Assembly: GCA_945607605.1 (NCBI GenBank)
Contig: CALYZE010000016.1
Location: 1-43,841 of the forward strand
From: an uncultured Bacteroides sp.
GTDB taxonomy: Bacteria > Bacteroidota > Bacteroidia > Bacteroidales > Bacteroidaceae
DNA: 43,841 nt
Direction of reading: 5' to 3'
The notes under the pieces are model-generated. The model ran no database searches. It saw only the letters and a program-made list of their open reading frames with translations, and had not been told where the DNA came from. Shown here one piece after another: positions 2,741 to 31,832 of this stretch; within the stretch, counting starts at the first letter, position 1, and every line of letters begins with the position of its first letter. The position numbers and the translations under genes are program-made.

Positions 2741-3565
2741 ATGAAATCAACCAATTTCAGTGTAGGCGTCATTATTTCGACATACAATAACCCTGCATGG
2801 CTTGAAAAAGTTCTTTGGGGATATATTTACCAAACACACCCGGCAGACGAAATAGTTATCGCAGATGACGGTTCCAGAGATGACACCCGACTTTTGATTG
2901 AAAGTTTCAAAGACAAACTTCCAATTAAACACGTGTGGCATGAAGACAATGGCTTTCAAAAATCGCGTATATTAAACAGTGCTCTTATAGCTTCTCAATC
3001 AGATTATCTCATCTTTACAGACCAAGACTGCATTCCCCGAAAAGACTTCATTGCTACGCATCTGGAATATGCAGAGAAAGGCCATTTTCTTTCTGGAGGC
3101 TATTTTAAGCTACCAATGGATATTAGTCTGGCACTTAGACAAGAGGACGTAGAAAACGGTAACGCTTTTTCCATTTCATGGCTGAGAGAAAAACAGATGA
3201 AATGCAATTTCAAATGTACCAAACTCGTAAAAAGCACCTCTTTTGCTCGCCTCATGAATGCCATTACTACTACAAAGGCCACCTGGAATGGGTGTAATGC
3301 TTCCGGATGGAGAAAAGATTTATTAGAAATAAATGGTTTCAATGAAGAAATGCAATACGGGGGACAAGACCGTGAATTTGGTGAACGCCTATTCAATTTA
3401 GGGATAAAGTCAAAACAAATTCGTTATTCAGCGATTGTTATACATTTAGACCACAAGCGCCCATATAAGACAAAAGAATCAATAAAAAAGAACATAAATA
3501 TCAGGCGCAATACTTGTAAGAGTGGCATTATAGAAACGCCTAATGGCATCAAACAATTGCATTAA
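2741..3565 (+). CDS. Family 2 glycosyltransferase with GT7/GT27-like C-terminus
   Basis: The 274-residue GT-A enzyme opens with VGVIISTYNNPAWLEKVL, has the nucleotide-sugar motif ADDGSRDD at about 41-48, a DxD-type TDQDC near residue 90, and a C-terminal block with GWRKDLLEINGFNEEM and GGQDREFGERL. The last block is typical of the galactosyltransferase/chondroitin-polymerase-like (Glyco_transf_7C) module. It should add a sugar from an activated donor to a surface glycan at the cytoplasmic face; the sugar is not predictable. The ATG at 2741 was chosen because a promoter match lies at 2687-2718. A GTG at 2732 is possible. The stop lies 4 bases before the pdxB start, so the two are probably cotranscribed. 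Confidence 0.85.
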   Translation: MKSTNFSVGVIISTYNNPAWLEKVLWGYIYQTHPADEIVIADDGSRDDTRLLIESFKDKLPIKHVWHEDNGFQKSRILNSALIASQSDYLIFTDQDCIPRKDFIATHLEYAEKGHFLSGGYFKLPMDISLALRQEDVENGNAFSISWLREKQMKCNFKCTKLVKSTSFARLMNAITTTKATWNGCNASGWRKDLLEINGFNEEMQYGGQDREFGERLFNLGIKSKQIRYSAIVIHLDHKRPYKTKESIKKNINIRRNTCKSGIIETPNGIKQLH

Positions 3566-3569
3566 AATG

Positions 3570-4634
3570 ATGAAAGTCATTGTTGACAACCAAATACCTT
3601 TTATCAAAGAAGCTATCGAAGAGATAGCTGATCAAGTAGTATTTGTTCCCGGTAAAGACTTCACCCCTGCATTGGTCAAAGAGGCAGATGCCTTGATTAT
3701 TCGCACACGTACACACTGCAACCGTCAATTATTGGAAGGTAGCAATGTCCGCTTCATCGCCACTGCCACCATTGGATTTGATCATATCGATACTGAATAT
3801 TGCCACGAAGCGGGCATCACCTGGACGAATGCTCCCGGATGTAACTCTGCCTCAGTAGCTCAATACCTGCAATCCTCCCTTTTGCTATTACAACTATCCA
3901 AAGGTAAAAAGTTATCAGAGATGACGATTGGCATCATCGGAGTTGGAAACGTGGGTCGTAAAGTAGCACAAGTAGCCCATGAATTAGGAATGCAAGTATT
4001 ATTGAACGACCTTCCCCGACAAGACAAAGAGGGCAATGCCGCTTTCACTTCTTTGCAAACTCTGGCAGAAAAATGTGACGTACTGACCTTCCATGTACCT
4101 TTATATAAGGAAGGCAGGTATAAAACATTCCATTTGGCAGACGATGCCTTCTTCCACCACCTAAAACGCTGCCCGGTCATCATCAATACTTCCCGTGGAG
4201 AAGTAATCCAGACAACGTCTCTTCTCAATGCACTGGAATGTGGAGCTATCTCAGATGCCATTATTGATGTTTGGGAAAATGAGCCCGACATCCATCCTAC
4301 CTTATTAAATAAGGTGTTTGTTGGAACACCCCATATTGCCGGTTATTCAGCTGATGGAAAAGCAAATGCTACACGTATGTCATTGGACGCACTCTGTCAC
4401 TATTTCAACCTAACAGCCAATTACCAGATCATCCCTCCCCAACCTGAGAACTCTACCCTCATGGCCACTAGCATAGAAGAGGCGTATTTACAAATGTATG
4501 ACCCACGAAAAGACAGCCGAGCTTTGAAAAGTCATCCGGAGCAATTCGAAAAGCTGCGTGGAGATTATCCCTTACGAAGAGAGAAGGAAGCTTATACAAT
4601 CAAGCTATGCCCTCTTCCAAATCAAAGAGACTGA
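3570..4634 (+). CDS. pdxB: 4-phosphoerythronate dehydrogenase
   Basis: This 354-residue NAD-dependent D-2-hydroxyacid dehydrogenase oxidises 4-phospho-D-erythronate in the DXP-dependent branch of pyridoxal phosphate synthesis. The Rossmann motif GVGNVG is at 124-129. The catalytic set is visible as Arg209 (NTSRGEV), Glu238 (ENEPD) and His255 (GTPHIAGYS). The GFDHID block and the extra C-terminal region after the catalytic domain fit PdxB rather than SerA. The start is ATG at 3570 or 3567, because MKVIVDNQIPF is the expected N-terminus; an earlier in-frame ATG at 3543 lies inside the preceding gene. The 3' end overlaps purN, on the other strand, by 13 bases. Confidence 0.92.
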   Translation: MKVIVDNQIPFIKEAIEEIADQVVFVPGKDFTPALVKEADALIIRTRTHCNRQLLEGSNVRFIATATIGFDHIDTEYCHEAGITWTNAPGCNSASVAQYLQSSLLLLQLSKGKKLSEMTIGIIGVGNVGRKVAQVAHELGMQVLLNDLPRQDKEGNAAFTSLQTLAEKCDVLTFHVPLYKEGRYKTFHLADDAFFHHLKRCPVIINTSRGEVIQTTSLLNALECGAISDAIIDVWENEPDIHPTLLNKVFVGTPHIAGYSADGKANATRMSLDALCHYFNLTANYQIIPPQPENSTLMATSIEEAYLQMYDPRKDSRALKSHPEQFEKLRGDYPLRREKEAYTIKLCPLPNQRD

Positions 4635-10600: not shown

Positions 10601-11071
10601 ATGGAAGACGATTTTAATTATCAAGCCGTACCTTTTCACTTCATCCATTGCCTTCATCCGGCTTGCCCTCGAAGCGAAAATTGCCTGCGCCACCTCACAG
10701 CACTACATGTCCCCCAAGACGTTTCAGCCATCCTGACGGTAAGCCCGTCCAACTACCCCAAGGAATCCGAACAGTGTCCTTATTTCAGAAGTACTGAGAA
10801 GCTCCGTTATGCTTGGGGAATTACCACCTTTTTCGATCACATTCCCTACAAGAAAGCACTCGAAATGAAAAGACGGTTCAATGAGTTATACCCCAAAACA
10901 ACTTATTACCGCATCCTGCACAAAGAACGTTCTCTTTCGCCGGCAGAGCAAACTGCCATTGCCGATCTCTTTACAAAAAGCGGCATCACAGAAGCGCCCG
11001 TATACGATTATTACACCCAAGAATATAACTGGGAAGATCACCCTGTCCTTCCAACAAACATCACAGATTAA
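10601..11071 (+). CDS. DUF6078-like small Cys-containing protein
   Basis: A 156-residue, probably cytosolic protein of unknown function, recognised as resembling the Bacteroidales DUF6078 group. The N-terminal part holds a Cys cluster, HCLHPACPRSENCLRH (C-x4-C-x5-C at about 17-28), and another Cys in QCPYF near 60. This arrangement could bind zinc or an iron-sulfur cluster. The C-terminal half is helical, with KALEMKRRFNELYPKTTYYRILHKE and an acidic, aromatic end (YDYYTQEYNWED). It starts at 10601 or 10583; the promoter box position favours 10601. It stands alone, followed by a tandem-repeat array. Confidence 0.65.
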   Translation: MEDDFNYQAVPFHFIHCLHPACPRSENCLRHLTALHVPQDVSAILTVSPSNYPKESEQCPYFRSTEKLRYAWGITTFFDHIPYKKALEMKRRFNELYPKTTYYRILHKERSLSPAEQTAIADLFTKSGITEAPVYDYYTQEYNWEDHPVLPTNITD

Positions 11072-11106
11072 CCTCCTCATTCTCAATCACCTTATAGTCC
11101 CACCTA

Positions 11107-11216
11107 TTTTCATCGTAGTGGGAAGGTCTTTCAGTCGTCATGGGAAAGGGCTTCAGTCGTAATGGGAAACCCTTTCAGTCGTCATGGGAAGAACCTCGAG
11201 TCGTAATGAGAAAGAG
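11107..11216. repeat. Five-copy 22-bp tandem repeat upstream of cysS
   Basis: Five consecutive units start at 11107, 11129, 11151, 11173 and 11195, with an exact 22-base period. The shared core is CAGTCGT(C/A)ATGGGAA; the first and last units are degenerate (TCATCGTAGTGGGAA, GAGTCGTAATGAGAA). Units 2 and 4 carry GTCATG, units 3 and 5 carry GTAATG, so the variant alternates. The array is intergenic, ends about 65 bases before the cysS -7 box, and has no spacers, so it is not a CRISPR. Confidence 0.85.
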
Positions 11217-11280
11217 GCAGATAAAAGGACCTTATTGACTATTTCCCATAGAAAAGGCAGAAATTATCACAGATTTATTA

Positions 11281-11288
11281 TAACTTTG
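11281..11288 (+). promoter_or_regulatory. -7 box TAACTTTG for cysS
   Basis: TAACTTTG matches the Bacteroides TAnnTTTG box and would start transcription near 11295, about 24 bases before the cysS ATG. No clear -33 element is seen at the standard spacing. Confidence 0.45.
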
Positions 11289-11318
11289 TATTTTAAAAAG
11301 AATTAATAATCAAACGTT

Positions 11319-12794
11319 ATGGAACAACAACTGACCATTTACAACACCCTAAATAGAAAAAAGGAATTATTCACGCCCCTTCATGCTCCCCATGTAGGTA
11401 TGTATGTTTGCGGTCCCACCGTTTACGGTGATCCACACTTGGGACACGCACGTCCTGCCATCACTTTTGACTTGTTATTCCGCTACCTCACCCATATGGG
11501 CTACAAGGTACGCTATGTACGCAACATCACCGACGTAGGCCATCTGGAGCACGATGCCGACGAAGGCGAAGACAAGATTGCCAAGAAAGCCCGTCTGGAG
11601 TCACTCGAACCCATGGAAGTGGCGCAATATTACATCAACCGCTACCACAAAGCAATGGAAACACTGAACGTGTTGCCACCCAGCATCGAACCCCATGCCA
11701 GCGGACATATCATCGAGCAAATAGAACTTGTAAAAGAAATTATAAAGAACGGATATGCTTACGAAAGTGAAGGCTCCGTTTATTTTGATGTAGTTAAATA
11801 CAACAAAGATCATCATTACGGCAAACTCTCCGGACGCAACCTCGACGATGTGCTTAATGCGACTCGCAGCTTGGACGGACAAAGCGAGAAACACAATCCC
11901 GCCGACTTCGCCTTGTGGAAATGTGCACAACCGGAGCACATCATGCGCTGGCCCAGTCCATGGAGTGAGGGATTCCCCGGCTGGCATGCCGAATGTACGG
12001 CTATGGGCAAAAAGTACTTAGGTGAACACTTCGACATTCACGGAGGCGGCATGGATCTCGTATTCCCTCATCACGAATGCGAAATAGCCCAATCCGTCGC
12101 TTCTCAAGGTGACGATATGGTGCACTACTGGATGCACAACAATATGCTGACCATCAACGGACAGAAGATGGGTAAATCTTACGGCAACTTCATCACGCTT
12201 GAAGAACTTTTCAAGGGCACGCATCCATTGTTGGAGCAAGCCTACACTCCGATGACCATCCGTTTCTTTACGTTACAGGCGCATTACCGCAGTACGGTGG
12301 ACTTCAGCAACGAAGCCCTGCAAGCTGCAGAGAAAGGCTTGTCAAGGCTCATGGATGCCATTCATGGACTCGATAGAATTACCCCTGCAGCTGTCTCTAC
12401 AGTAGCGGCAAAGGCTCTGCGTGAGAAGTGCTACGAAGCCATGAACGATGACCTGAACTCTCCGATCGTCATTGCTCACCTCTTTGATGGCGCCCGCATG
12501 GTGAACAACATCCTCGCCGGCAACGATACCGTTACAGCGGATGACCTGAAAGAGTTGAAGGAAACGTTCCACCTTTTCTGTTTCGACGTTCTGGGTTTAA
12601 CAGAAGACAATGCTTCCAACGAAGAACGCGAAGCTGCCTTCGGCAAGGTAGTAGATATGTTGTTGGAAGAGCGTATGAAGGCAAAAGCCAACAAAGACTG
12701 GGCAACCAGCGACAAGATTCGCAACGAACTTACTGCTCTCGGATTCGAGATTAAGGATGGTAAGGAAGGATGTGAATGGAAATTGAATAAATAA
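11319..12794 (+). CDS. cysS: Cysteinyl-tRNA synthetase
   Basis: This 491-residue class I aminoacyl-tRNA synthetase charges tRNA-Cys in the cytosol. The HIGH-type motif is HLGH at 40-43 within [16 protein letters not shown], whose Cys31 is one zinc ligand. Further zinc-site residues appear in [10 protein letters not shown] and [10 protein letters not shown]. The KMSKS-type loop is KMGKSYGNF near residue 283. The C-terminal helical domain ends in [16 protein letters not shown], typical of the family. Length is normal. It has its own promoter box and lies downstream of the 22-bp tandem array. The 3' end faces a stem-loop terminator shared with the convergent DUF3108 gene. Confidence 0.96.
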
Positions 12795-12854
12795 AAACGG
12801 TACTCGCCTCTCTACTTCTCAACGGAACAAGGGAGGCGAGTGGCGGTTAACCGC
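12792..12854 (-). terminator. Intrinsic terminator for the minus-strand DUF3108 gene, with adjacent palindrome
   Basis: ACTCGCCTC (12802-12810) pairs with GAGGCGAGT (12833-12841). On the minus strand the stem is followed, after ACCG, by a T-rich run (TTTTTATTTATT). A perfect 12-bp palindrome GCGGTTAACCGC (12843-12854) lies next to it. The region separates convergent cysS and DUF3108 and may stop transcription in both directions, though only the minus side has the T-run. Confidence 0.6.
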
Positions 12855-12858
12855 TCAC

Positions 12859-13713
12859 TCATTTCTTTTCCACCACCGAGGTCATGGGATAGCGATTTCC
12901 TCGTACACTTTTAAAGAAAGCCTTTGCCGACCCAAAGTTGAGATACATATCCAGACGGATAGGCAGGTGGTTTTTGTCATCGGATACAAAGAAGGTAATG
13001 ACTTCCTTCTCTTTTCCTTTCTTATATTCTACAAAAGAAAACACCAGGCAACGATAAGTTGTATCATTATTCGCTTTCACATTTTCCTTGCCACGGTAAA
13101 TCAGCGTTTGCTCCTCTACCTTACGGCCCGTTGCCATAGGAAAAAGTATCTTCTCGCCAACCTTATAATCCTTTGGATCGTAAGAACGCGCTTGCGCCAA
13201 GATGCTCAACATATCGAAGATACAACGACTGTCACTGTATTCCATCTCCTGCGTAGGACGAACAGGCTTATGCCAAGTGCGCTTCTGCTTTACACTCGAT
13301 AGACCGCCATCGTAGGAAAACCATGCTTCATCCACCGTATAGCGGTCGCCCTCCTCAGCAGCCTTCCGAAAGTAAAGAGGCTCCAACTTTTCAGTGACGT
13401 AACAAGTCAGTGTATCACGCATCTTAAAGAAGAAGTCAGTCTTCTTACTCCCTACAGAAAGCAGGTTGAAACGGAAAGCAGGTTGCGAACGATAGGTAGT
13501 GCTATTCGTCGTAAGACTCGCCATGCCCACTTTCTTCCAGATGAACTTCCAGTTGAAATACAAGTCGTACATAACGTGCTCACCCGATTTGAATGCTTCA
13601 TTCTTGGCTGCACACTGAGCCTGGGCAAACCCGGTAGTCATCAGACAGAGAACTCCTGTTAGGAGTCCCAAAGCAAACAACCGTCGCTGTTTAATAACTA
13701 CGCCCCTGCCCAC
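12859..13713 (-). CDS. DUF3108 domain-containing exported protein
   Basis: The mature protein follows a signal peptide (about LFALGLLTGVLCLMTTGFAQAQ) and has the DUF3108 pattern: FKSGEHVMYDLYFNWKFIWKKVGMASL, central beta strands with WFSYDGGLSSVKQKRTW, and a C-terminal HLPIRLDMYLNFGSAKAFFKSVRG. The function of DUF3108 is unknown; it is a predicted periplasmic beta-rich domain. The start is uncertain. The ATG at 13791 lies 101 bases inside the upstream gene and would give a 30-residue n-region that only mirrors that gene's Asn/Arg-rich tail. GTG at 13713 gives a normal signal peptide. An ATT at 13695, overlapping the upstream TAA, is possible. It is very likely cotranscribed with the lipoprotein gene upstream. 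Confidence 0.8.
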   Translation of the reverse strand: MGRGVVIKQRRLFALGLLTGVLCLMTTGFAQAQCAAKNEAFKSGEHVMYDLYFNWKFIWKKVGMASLTTNSTTYRSQPAFRFNLLSVGSKKTDFFFKMRDTLTCYVTEKLEPLYFRKAAEEGDRYTVDEAWFSYDGGLSSVKQKRTWHKPVRPTQEMEYSDSRCIFDMLSILAQARSYDPKDYKVGEKILFPMATGRKVEEQTLIYRGKENVKANNDTTYRCLVFSFVEYKKGKEKEVITFFVSDDKNHLPIRLDMYLNFGSAKAFFKSVRGNRYPMTSVVEKK

Positions 13714-27960: not shown

Positions 27961-28725
27961 ATGAAAATTGCATTAATTGGTTACGGTAAAATGGGCAAGG
28001 AGATTGAAAAGATAGCCCTTAGCCGTGGACATGAAATCGTCAGCATCATCGACGTAAATAATCAAGAAGGATTTGAATCGGCAGCTTTCAAAAGTGCCGA
28101 CATTGCCATAGAATTTACCAACCCCATGGTAGCATACAATAACTACATGAAGGCTTTCAAGGCTGGGGTAAAACTTGTTTCAGGCAGCACTGGTTGGATG
28201 GCCGAGCACGGTGAAGAAGTAAAGAAACTGTGTACTGAAGGCGGTCAGACTTTGTTCTGGTCTTCCAACTTCAGCTTAGGAGTAACCCTCTTCTCAGCTG
28301 TCAACAAGTATCTTGCAAAGATCATGAATCAGTTTCCTGCTTATGACGTATCCATGAGTGAAACACATCATATCCATAAGTTGGATGCTCCCAGTGGCAC
28401 TGCCATCACCCTTGCCGAAGGTATTTTGGAAAATATAGACCGTAAAGACAGATGGGTGGAAGGCACTTTCCAAGCTCCCGACGGAGTGGTTTCAGGCACT
28501 ACCCTATGCGCCGCTAACGAATTATCGGTTAGTTCTATCCGTGAAGGTGAAGTTCCCGGTATCCATAGTATCCGTTATGACTCCGAAGCGGACAGTATTA
28601 CTATCACTCACGATGCCAAAAACCGTAAAGGTTTTGCATTGGGTGCCGTTCTTGCTGCCGAATACACTGCCCAGCACGAAGGTTTCTTGGGAATGGCCGA
28701 CTTATTTCCGTTTTTAAATGACTAA
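27961..28725 (+). CDS. dapB: 4-hydroxy-tetrahydrodipicolinate reductase
   Basis: The 254-residue cytosolic enzyme reduces the tetrahydrodipicolinate precursor with NAD(P)H in lysine and diaminopimelate synthesis, needed for peptidoglycan. The Rossmann start is IALIGYGKMGKEIEKIA (GxGxMG). The substrate and catalytic region reads SETHHIHKLDAPSGTAITLAEGI, with the conserved His pair and the KxDxPSGTA motif. SGSTGW and FWSSNFSLGVTLF also match the family. It begins an operon with two signal-peptidase-type genes and a WbqC-family gene, six bases before lepB. Confidence 0.95.
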   Translation: MKIALIGYGKMGKEIEKIALSRGHEIVSIIDVNNQEGFESAAFKSADIAIEFTNPMVAYNNYMKAFKAGVKLVSGSTGWMAEHGEEVKKLCTEGGQTLFWSSNFSLGVTLFSAVNKYLAKIMNQFPAYDVSMSETHHIHKLDAPSGTAITLAEGILENIDRKDRWVEGTFQAPDGVVSGTTLCAANELSVSSIREGEVPGIHSIRYDSEADSITITHDAKNRKGFALGAVLAAEYTAQHEGFLGMADLFPFLND

Positions 28726-28731
28726 TATAAT

Positions 28732-30225
28732 ATGAGAAAAGCAACACGTACCCAATGGATTAAGTTTGGTATCATTACCCTTCTTTACCTCGCATTCCTT
28801 ATCTGGGTCAAAAGCTGGTGGGGATTGATCGTAGTACCTTTCATTTTTGACATCTATATCAGTAAAAAGATACCCTGGGGATTCTGGAAAGAATCTAAAA
28901 ACACAGCTGTACGAAGCATCATGAGCTGGGTAGACGCCATCGTATTTGCACTGATAGCCGTCTATTTTGTGAATATCTATATTTTCCAGAATTATCAGAT
29001 ACCTTCTTCTTCTTTGGAGAAGTCGTTGCTGGTAGGCGATTATCTGTATGTAAGTAAAATGAGTTACGGACCACGTGTACCGAATACCCCCCTGTCTATG
29101 CCACTGGCACAGCATACTCTGCCTATACTGAACAGTAAATCATACTTTGAATGGCCGCAATGGAAATACAAACGTGTATCAGGCTTCGGAAAAGTGAAGC
29201 TGAACGATATTGTTGTGTTCAACTTCCCTGCCGGTGATACGGTAGCAATCAATAACCAACAAACTGATTTTTATACGCTTGCTTATGAAGCCGGACAACG
29301 TATATATCCCAATAAGGTTGACATGGATAGCCTAACACGCGATCAGCAACGGACGGTTTACGATTTGTACTATAATGCGGGGCGTAATCAACTCCGTTCT
29401 AATCCTCAGATGTACGGAGAGATAGTGGTACGTCCTGTCGACCGTCGTGAAAATTACGTGAAACGTTGTGTCGGTTTACCGGGTGATACTTTGCAAATCA
29501 AGGATGGTCAAGTCTATATCGACAGCAAAATCATCCAGAATCCGGAAGAAATGCAATTCAACTATTTCGTACAGACCACCGGCCCTTATATTCCGGAAGA
29601 TATGTTCCGCGAATTGAATATCAGTAAAGACGATCAAGCATTGATGACCGACAATCTTGGATGGGAAGAAGGATTTATGGAGATGGGACTAAACCATCGT
29701 GATGTACAAGGCAGATTAACTCCGATTTACCATCTTCCGCTCACCCAAAAGATGCATGACACACTTCTTGGGAATAAAAAATTGATCAGTCGCATTGTAA
29801 AAGAGTCTGACTTGTTCTCCGGACAAATGTATCCATTGAATCTTTATAGTGGATGGACGCGTGACAACTATGGTCCGATATGGATTCCTGCCAAAGATGC
29901 CACCATCCGATTAACTCCGGATAATTTGCCTATCTATGAACGTTGCATCGTTGCATACGAGGGCAATAAACTGGAACAAAAGTCAGACGGCATCTACATC
30001 AATGATCAAAAGACTGATAGCTACACCTTCACGATGGATTATTACTGGATGATGGGGGATAACCGTCACAATTCTGCTGACTCTCGTTATTGGGGCTTTG
30101 TTCCCGAAGATCACGTAGTGGGTAAACCCATCGTTGTCTGGTTGTCACTGGATAAAGATCGAGGATGGTTTGACGGTAAAGTTCGTTGGAGCCGCATCTT
30201 TACGTGGGTGGATAAGATAAAGTAA
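28732..30225 (+). CDS. lepB: Signal peptidase I
   Basis: This 497-residue inner-membrane protease removes signal peptides from exported proteins. Two hydrophobic segments lie near the N-terminus (about 9-40 and 63-83). The catalytic Ser94 is in IPSSSLEKSL and the general base Lys244 in NYVKRCVGLPGD. Box E is intact (MMGDNRHNSADSRYWGFVPEDHVVG). About 190 residues separate the Lys box from box E, far more than in E. coli LepB; long inserts of this kind are known in Bacteroidota enzymes. It lies in an operon between dapB and a divergent, apparently inactive paralog. Confidence 0.93.
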   Translation: MRKATRTQWIKFGIITLLYLAFLIWVKSWWGLIVVPFIFDIYISKKIPWGFWKESKNTAVRSIMSWVDAIVFALIAVYFVNIYIFQNYQIPSSSLEKSLLVGDYLYVSKMSYGPRVPNTPLSMPLAQHTLPILNSKSYFEWPQWKYKRVSGFGKVKLNDIVVFNFPAGDTVAINNQQTDFYTLAYEAGQRIYPNKVDMDSLTRDQQRTVYDLYYNAGRNQLRSNPQMYGEIVVRPVDRRENYVKRCVGLPGDTLQIKDGQVYIDSKIIQNPEEMQFNYFVQTTGPYIPEDMFRELNISKDDQALMTDNLGWEEGFMEMGLNHRDVQGRLTPIYHLPLTQKMHDTLLGNKKLISRIVKESDLFSGQMYPLNLYSGWTRDNYGPIWIPAKDATIRLTPDNLPIYERCIVAYEGNKLEQKSDGIYINDQKTDSYTFTMDYYWMMGDNRHNSADSRYWGFVPEDHVVGKPIVVWLSLDKDRGWFDGKVRWSRIFTWVDKIK

Positions 30226-30229
30226 AAGA

Positions 30230-31165
30230 ATGACTAACGGCTGGAAGATAGCAAGTGCAGCAATCGGAGTGATACTCATCGTAGTATTGCTTAGGGGCTG
30301 TGTTGCAACATCCTACCTGATTCCATCTTCAGGAATGGAGAATTCTTTGTACTGTGGCGAGCGTATTCTCGTCAACAAGTGGAGTTACGGTTTACGTTTA
30401 CCTTTCATGAAACTAGTGGGTTATCACCGGTGGGCAGACCGCCCGGTTCAAAAGGAAGACATTCTGGTTTTCAACAACCCCGCTAATCTTTCGGAACCAG
30501 TCATCGATCGGAGAGAAGCCTTTATCAGTCGTTGCATCGGAACACCCGGAGATACTTTATTGATAGACTCTCTTTTCTCCGTAATTTCCTCGGAGAAGAA
30601 TGCACCCGATCAAAAATTTCTCTATGCCTATCCTCGAAAGAAAGAGCAACAACTGGATTCACTCCTGGCCATTCTTTCTATCAAACCCAATGATCTGTTA
30701 GGGCAAGATTCTATAAAAAACATACGCAGTTTTAGCCGATATGAATTCTATCTATTGGAGCAAGCCCTAAACGGTTACTGTTGGATAGAGCCTATTAACA
30801 AGGAAGACTCCATGGAAACCTTGAAGCCTTTGATTGTTCCGGGAAAAGGAAAAGTAATACGCGTCTATCCCTGGAACATGACTTTACTACGTAACACGTT
30901 GGTTCTTCATGAAAAGAAGCATGCAGAAATCAAAAATGACACACTCTATATAGAAGGTAAACCTGCCCAACATTGCTACTTCACAAAGGATTACTATTGG
31001 GTAGGGGCAAATAACTCAATCAATCTCTCCGACTCTCGCCTATTTGGTTTTGTACCGAAAGATCACATCATCGGCAAAGCTGCTGTCATTTGGTTCTCCA
31101 AAGATAAAGAGAAAGGTCTTTTCAGTGGATATCGATGGAACAGGATATGGGGAAAAGTGAAATAA
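30230..31165 (+). CDS. Signal-peptidase-I-like paralog lacking the catalytic dyad
   Basis: The 311-residue S26-family protein starts 4 bases after lepB. It has one N-terminal membrane helix (WKIASAAIGVILIVVLLRGCV) and the family layout, but the key residues are changed. In IPSSGMENSL the catalytic Ser position is Gly35 (the neighbour has IPSSSLEKSL). In AFISRCIGTPGD the general-base Lys position is Ser100 (the neighbour has NYVKRCVGLPGD). The GDNR box reads GANN, although DSRLFGFVPKDHIIG is kept. The fold is therefore conserved while the known chemistry is not. It may be a pseudoprotease acting as a partner, chaperone or regulator of LepB, or use relocated nucleophiles such as Ser33/Ser34. 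No frameshift or decay is visible. Confidence 0.85.
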   Translation: MTNGWKIASAAIGVILIVVLLRGCVATSYLIPSSGMENSLYCGERILVNKWSYGLRLPFMKLVGYHRWADRPVQKEDILVFNNPANLSEPVIDRREAFISRCIGTPGDTLLIDSLFSVISSEKNAPDQKFLYAYPRKKEQQLDSLLAILSIKPNDLLGQDSIKNIRSFSRYEFYLLEQALNGYCWIEPINKEDSMETLKPLIVPGKGKVIRVYPWNMTLLRNTLVLHEKKHAEIKNDTLYIEGKPAQHCYFTKDYYWVGANNSINLSDSRLFGFVPKDHIIGKAAVIWFSKDKEKGLFSGYRWNRIWGKVK

Positions 31166-31196: not shown

Positions 31197-31832
31197 ATGA
31201 AATCCGTATTCCTCTCTTCCGCTTACCTGGCACCTGTAGAATATTATACCAAATTGCTAGCATACGATAAAGTATTCATTGAGCAACACGACCATTATAC
31301 AAAACAAACTTATCGCAACCGTTGTACCATCGCTGCACCGGACGGTGAACTGGCACTTTCCATTCCAACTGTCAAGCCGAACACTCTAAAATGTCCCATG
31401 CGAGATATTCGTATCTCTGACCACGGCAACTGGCGACATCTGCACTGGAATGCTATCGAATCGGCCTACAATCACACCCCTTTCTTTGAGTATTATAAGG
31501 ATGACTTTCGCCCTTTCTACGAAAAGAAATACGAATTCTTGATAGATTTCAATGAAGAACTTTGTCGTTTAGTTTGTTCGCTCATCGATATGCAGCCCAA
31601 TATGGCACGTACCACTGAATACCACACTGAATTTGCCACAGACGAAGAGGACTTCCGTGAACGTATTCATCCAAAGAAAGATTTTATTTTTGAAGATGCA
31701 GCATTTTCCCCACAACCTTATTATCAAGTATTTCAAGAGCGCCTTGGCTTCCTCCCCAATCTGAGTATTATCGACTTGTTGTTCAACATGGGGCCTGAGA
31801 GTCTATTGGTATTGCAGCAGAGTCATCAATAA
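31197..31832 (+). CDS. WbqC family protein
   Basis: A 211-residue protein matching the WbqC-like family: SSAYLAPVEYYTKLLAYDKVFIEQHDHYTKQTYRNRC at the start, LSIPTVKPN, then ISDHGNWRHLHWNAIESAYNHTPFFEYY. Family members often sit in O-antigen or sugar-modification clusters and are thought to be enzymes acting on nucleotide-linked amino sugars or fatty acyl groups; no reaction is established. It is probably cytosolic. It is the last gene of the dapB-lepB operon, 31 bases after the signal-peptidase paralog. Its stop (31830-31832) directly abuts the stop of the convergent regulator gene. Confidence 0.82.
   Translation: MKSVFLSSAYLAPVEYYTKLLAYDKVFIEQHDHYTKQTYRNRCTIAAPDGELALSIPTVKPNTLKCPMRDIRISDHGNWRHLHWNAIESAYNHTPFFEYYKDDFRPFYEKKYEFLIDFNEELCRLVCSLIDMQPNMARTTEYHTEFATDEEDFRERIHPKKDFIFEDAAFSPQPYYQVFQERLGFLPNLSIIDLLFNMGPESLLVLQQSHQ

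Follow-up and report, generated by a model that had tools for sequence, protein, structure and literature searches.

The subject of this study is a degenerate paralogue of type I signal peptidase, encoded directly behind an intact lepB gene in an uncultured Bacteroides species. The DNA analysed, referred to here as the window, is a stretch of 43,841 nucleotides (contig CALYZE010000016.1, positions 1 to 43,841, assembly GCA_945607605.1). The open reading frame (ORF) of the paralogue starts with ATG and contains 0 internal stops, and a gap of 4 nucleotides separates it from the lepB stop at position 30225. Its features are given below. Residue counts come from the window together with the best 80 of 470 confirmed stretches; filtering by length and stops left 79 of the 81 paralogues (L191 and L245 were dropped) and 79 of the 81 LepBs (L196 and L235 were dropped).

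30230..31165, plus strand: degenerate S26 paralogue (pseudo-LepB), 311 amino acids
30233..30301, plus strand: N-terminal helix, residues 2-24, a probable membrane anchor of putative topology (helix in the predicted model; a hydrophobic segment precedes box B)
30332..30334, plus strand: Gly35 replacing the nucleophile Ser (Gly in 79/79 orthologues; all four GGN codons occur)
30527..30529, plus strand: Ser100 replacing the general-base Lys (Lys in 0/79 orthologues)
31007..31009, plus strand: Ala260 replacing the invariant Gly, E. coli Gly272 (Gly in 0/79 orthologues)
31025..31027, plus strand: Leu266 replacing the Lys-stabilising Ser, E. coli Ser278 (Ser in 0/79 orthologues)

The genes stand in the order dapB, lepB, degenerate S26 gene, wbqC, and this order recurs in other loci.

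27961..28725, plus strand: upstream neighbour, presumably dapB, named from its sequence alone
28732..30225, plus strand: lepB, intact type I signal peptidase, 497 amino acids (PF10502, expectation value (E) 1e-40; TIGR02227 above cut-off)
29011..29013, plus strand: codon of the LepB nucleophile Ser94, by alignment (Ser in 79/79 LepBs)
29461..29463, plus strand: codon of the LepB general base Lys244, by alignment (Lys in 79/79 LepBs)
31197..31832, plus strand: wbqC, downstream neighbour (PF08889, E 5.9e-37)

The paralogue matches Peptidase_S26 (PF10502) with an E of 2.2e-24 and a score of 86.8 bits, where the cut-off is 22.9, and its alignment with the adjacent LepB covers 267 columns at 30% identity (E 1e-30). 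Among the NCBIfam models, TIGR02227 (signal peptidase I) exceeded its cut-off and PRK10861.1 did not reach its own, so that automatic annotation would name the protein a signal peptidase. The ORF, the family match and the alignment with LepB agree with a preliminary description of the sequence, which had claimed an S26 paralogue in an uninterrupted frame beside an intact lepB. That description had also read the nucleophile Ser as changed to Gly35 and the general-base Lys as changed to Ser100, and alignment with PDB chains of the E. coli signal peptidase places both residues at those sites. The third change read at that time, GDNR to GANN, was out of register by one residue. The alignment is gapless from YYW to DSR, and the G-D-N-R of LepB corresponds to A260-N261-N262-S263, so that GDNR aligns with ANNS. 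The correct box-E register adds two losses, the equivalent of Gly272 being Ala260 and that of Ser278 being Leu266; Gly272 of the E. coli enzyme is described as invariant and Ser278 as stabilising the Lys (PMC4049620).

The fold of LepB and of the E. coli signal peptidase (PDB 9nlo, 1b12, 1t7d), the hydrophobic segment before box B, and boxes B to E are all recognisable in the paralogue, and the signal peptidase I fold is retained in its predicted model. Four residues of an active type I signal peptidase are missing: the box-B Ser, the box-D Lys, and the box-E Gly272 and Ser278. Unlike LepB, the paralogue therefore lacks the Ser-Lys dyad and its two supporting residues, and its predicted single-chain model has a single N-terminal helix, residues 2-24. 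The two dyad sites are 65 residues apart, versus 150 in the adjacent LepB (about 85 fewer).

These losses are shared by the orthologues. The nucleophile site is Gly in all 79 paralogues, versus Ser in all 79 LepBs, and the general-base site is S in 46, G in 29, N in 3, T in 1 and K in 0, versus K in 79/79 LepBs. The equivalent of Gly272 is S in 39, A in 31, T in 7, V in 1, P in 1 and G in 0 (G in 79/79 LepBs), and that of Ser278 is L in 57, V in 11, I in 6, F in 3, N in 1, T in 1 and S in 0 (S in 79/79 LepBs). Across the family set, L001-L118, Gly occupies the nucleophile site in 113 of 114 paralogue rows and Lys the base site in 0/114. The Gly35 codon is GGC in 46, GGT in 13, GGA in 11 and GGG in 10 of 80/81 rows, the remaining row, L191, having no in-frame box-B motif. 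With Gly in 79/79 at one dyad site and Lys in 0/79 at the other, dyad loss in the orthologues goes far beyond chance. A strain-specific mutation or a sequencing error was rejected, as the loss recurs across orthologues, and the paralogue is almost certainly catalytically dead.

Activity through another nucleophile or a divergent dyad is very improbable. The window copy does contain Ser33, Ser34, Ser100 and Cys102, and an unknown enzymatic activity has also been considered for SipA, a dead S26 protein discussed below. The candidates Ser33, Ser34 and Ser100, put forward in the preliminary description, are however not supported as nucleophiles and were rejected: Ser34 and Ser100 are not conserved (Ser in 43/79 and 46/79 paralogues, respectively), and Ser33, Ser in 74/79, is the ordinary S26 box-B serine, found in 76/79 LepBs as well. 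Cys102, present in 74/79 paralogues, is likewise common to LepB (77/79), and hence neither residue is new. Moreover, no Lys or His specific to the paralogue stands beside the site in the conservation lists examined, and the site residues vary freely in other families (Q, A, C, H, R, E, N, T).

The distribution of the paralogue was followed through the family, the order and the class. The family sample comprised 298 genomes of at least 90% completeness, counted by hand, and a match with an E of 1.9e-47 or better was taken as strong. Strong matches were found in 119 of the 298 genomes, namely 69/72 in the genus of the window, 38/38 in genus code g35, 6/6 in g30, 3/3 in g31, 2/2 in g42 and 1/1 in g44, and 5 of the 119 contain stops within the matched stretch. 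Three of the 72 genomes of the window's genus, G005, G243 and G280, yielded no strong match. The order sample comprised 49 neighbourhoods, 48 of them outside the family; 40 were picked from well-matching lepB rows, and eight of the 9 others were picked for hints of extra copies or a full-length match. A degenerate S26 ORF stands beside an intact lepB in 18 of the 49 loci (13 among the 40) and a second intact S26 copy in 5. In these degenerate copies Q, A, C, H, R, E, N, T, G or S is found at the nucleophile site, and S, G, A, T, M or K at the base site; a single dyad residue is left in four, Ser only in L137 and L150 and Lys only in L151 and L152. Gln was observed at the nucleophile site in six degenerate copies from several families (L140, L159, L164, L130, L168 and L174), so different residues have been fixed in different lineages. 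The wbqC gene directly follows the degenerate copy in 11/18 loci and was not recognised within the fetched stretch in 7/18. No degenerate copy was found in 20 loci from other orders of the class, two of which carry tandem intact copies. The degenerate paralogue looks like a feature of the Bacteroidales, with an early gain and frequent loss.

A quick tree of 106 rows split 32 degenerate rows, none of which (0/32) has both dyad residues, from the other 74, with a Shimodaira-Hasegawa-like approximate likelihood ratio test (SH-aLRT) value of 91. In a tree thinned to 63 of these rows (the degenerate rows L004, L025, L115, L116, L152 and L176 being left out), 26 degenerate rows lie on one side of a branch with support of 97/87, recovered in 98% of 200 bootstrap trees, a number at which the bootstrap had not settled. 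Leaving out the columns of boxes B, D and E and using a different alignment lowered support for this branch to 85/17 and 84%, and long branches are present in the tree. Judging from these sequence trees, a single origin of the degenerate family is likely. Locus L126 carries a second, upstream dead S26 copy (2948-4066, minus strand), whose dyad sites read Ala and Ser. It was counted among the intact rows and groups with them, so a further loss seems to have occurred separately in this locus.

Shrunken forms of the paralogue are found in several genera. In genus code g28, which is probably Prevotella, 16 of 17 loci have an S26 frame of 136-266 amino acids between lepB and wbqC (L121, L122 and L281-L295; L287 has none). 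Two of four loci of g41 carry frames of 258 (L297) and 275 (L296) amino acids, with none in L124 and L299; one of 168 amino acids is present in g37 (L123), and no shrunken frame was found in L134 and L298 of g39. All 8 shrunken forms scanned, of 19, passed the Pfam cut-off, and the 12 shortest retain an R, a T, a DR..VN stretch, PGDT and two Gly. The short forms of g28 have no box E and most have a cysteine cluster, C..C.C, that occurs in 11/19 shrunken forms overall. The three least diverged pairs, which are unsaturated or nearly so, have ratios of nonsynonymous to synonymous substitution rates (dN/dS) of 0.24, 0.10 and 0.25; the remaining pairs printed range from 0.36 to 0.90 at dS above 1.2, near saturation. 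If the shrunken forms are functional, the role would need neither the dyad nor box E, the part from box B to box D being kept.

Selection on the full-length gene was assessed by pairwise Nei-Gojobori dN/dS, with saturated pairs dropped; the pairs are not independent. At a paralogue dS of 0.05-0.5 (27 pairs), the median dN/dS was 0.138 for the paralogue, 0.065 for lepB, 0.119 for wbqC and 0.078 for dapB (20 pairs for dapB). At dS 0.5-1.0 (145 pairs) the medians were 0.328 for the paralogue versus 0.237 for lepB, and at dS 1.0-1.6 (185 pairs) 0.270 versus 0.183. The gene is constrained, though less than lepB. Conservation of Gly/Ser at these sites in aligned homologues, together with purifying selection, had been proposed at the outset as the sign of a functional pseudoenzyme, and Gly is indeed fixed, with dN/dS well under 1. 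The pseudoprotease reading given in the preliminary description is thus strongly supported by a loss conserved in the genus and beyond, by a dyad present in 0/79 and by purifying selection; its suggestion of an alternative nucleophile is the part that did not stand. A simple pseudogene is disfavoured, as Gly35 is fixed despite synonymous codon turnover and dN/dS is well under 1. The paralogue is very probably functional rather than decaying.

The gap between lepB and the paralogue is at most 100 nucleotides in 73 of 80 loci. No plus-strand terminator-like site was found between the two genes in the window, by a scan that yielded no more sites than shuffled sequences did. The genome of the window (98.5% complete, 116 contigs) contains only two S26 genes, lepB and the paralogue, so LepB appears to be the one signal peptidase I that it has. 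In larger genomes of this genus, additional intact S26 copies, each about 300 amino acids long, occur elsewhere (L300-L304), with PSDSMEP or PSNSMEP as box B; Ser and Lys are kept in all five examined. In L207 a 703-amino-acid ORF (10945-13056) is placed between the dead paralogue and wbqC, and L203, L211 and L213 have gaps matching that of L207 in size. Judged by eye, the product of this ORF is a putative C10-type peptidase with leucine-rich repeats.

The loss and fixation of the dyad and supporting residues, the modelled fold, the co-directional site behind lepB, the purifying selection and the recurrence over the order together suggest a membrane-anchored protein with a signal peptidase I fold, unable to cut by the Ser-Lys mechanism and maintained dead by selection. 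Some of the best-conserved residues of the paralogue surround boxes B and D, and part of the signal-peptide cleft may still be present. The protein would work beside LepB as an accessory that does not itself cleave: it might be a subunit tuning LepB, or it might hold signal peptides or precursors and present them to LepB. Partnering or regulation of LepB, or service to special exported proteins, as put forward in the preliminary description, is plausible. Given its position, the well-kept surroundings of boxes B and D and the lack of any other recurrent partner, we see an even chance that the paralogue serves LepB or its substrates as a putative accessory, as opposed to being an unrelated client chaperone. 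Our best explanation overall is a non-cleaving, membrane-anchored S26 paralogue kept by selection, most likely as a putative accessory of LepB or its substrates, and we regard the case for it as about evenly balanced.

Several observations weigh against this explanation. One paralogue of the same genus, in L023, carries Asn at the Gly35 site. Across the order, 26 of the 49 loci have an intact S26 gene with no partner, some of them cut by contig ends, so the gene is dispensable in many lineages. The median dN/dS of the paralogue is 1.4 to 2.1 times that of lepB in the three bins. Rate covariation, calculated over 114 branches from the 62 of 81 rows with all five genes, was 0.51 with lepB but not specific, as the control neighbour DUF2851, which has no known link, scored higher at 0.57; the values for dapB and wbqC were 0.07 and 0.04. 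In the predicted model, box E (262-271) has a predicted local distance difference test (pLDDT) score under 50 and residues 31-40 average 63, so the geometry of the cleft is not fixed by the model. Finally, pilus polymerisation was barely affected in SipA by the V99R change, which blocks the cleft, or by substitutions at the position of the dead nucleophile (PMC4049620), which calls for caution in assuming that the cleft matters.

The higher dN/dS and the loci with no partner would also fit a relic of a duplicated lepB that erodes slowly towards loss and has little function or none, as would the three same-genus genomes with no strong match, the marked shrinkage in g28 and the stops inside 5 of the 119 strong family matches. 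Such a relic is quite unlikely, since Gly35 is fixed with synonymous codon turnover and dN/dS is well under 1, strong matches persist in 119 of the 298 family genomes, and the small forms share a common core and low dN/dS in their least diverged pairs.

Dead S26 proteins have precedents. SipA of Streptococcus pyogenes (PDB 4n31) has an S26 fold with no dyad, as does the paralogue, and is described as essential for pilus polymerisation (PMC4049620). A SipA-like, client-specific assembly chaperone, one that binds a few exported proteins and not LepB and whose position behind lepB is incidental, is unlikely here. SipA lies in a sortase pilus locus, whereas the paralogue is flanked by lepB and wbqC in Gram-negative Bacteroidales, with no pilus link found; its recurrent neighbours are dapB, lepB and wbqC and not a surface-structure operon. 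The residues that replace the dyad in SipA also differ from those of the paralogue (Gly; Ser, Gly, Asn or Thr). By structural alignment, the paralogue is 31% identical to active signal peptidases versus 18% to SipA, and the SipA chain was absent among the 10 PDB sequences with an E up to 1 when the paralogue was the query. Another precedent is SpsA of Staphylococcus aureus, described as a type I signal peptidase homologue without two catalytic residues in a cell that also contains the active SpsB (PMC12445088); the paralogue likewise lacks two catalytic residues in a cell with an intact LepB. SpsA belongs to another phylum, is called dispensable there, and is likened to the paralogue by this description only. 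The lack of a strong match in 3 of 72 same-genus genomes hints that the paralogue may be dispensable for growth. Among the matches listed from the open-licence PMC literature, viewed as entries and opening lines of abstracts, a description of the Bacteroidales paralogue family was not found.

Signal peptidase I in bacteria is often viewed as a stand-alone enzyme. It is conceivable, if rather unlikely, that an ancient Bacteroidales family of dead peptidases, which arose once, forms a two-subunit enzyme with LepB, as a bacterial counterpart of the accessory subunits found in eukaryotic signal peptidase complexes. This subunit would then, in one large sister genus, have been reduced to a mini-protein of about 135 residues that has a membrane anchor and a cysteine cluster, revealing the part of the S26 fold that the accessory role needs. 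The size series from 311 to about 135 amino acids is a compact natural set for probing pseudoenzyme function. If a major gut order conserves a dead partner directly downstream of lepB, one that shrinks in a single genus yet stays in place, this would suggest an accessory or regulatory part in export processing there.
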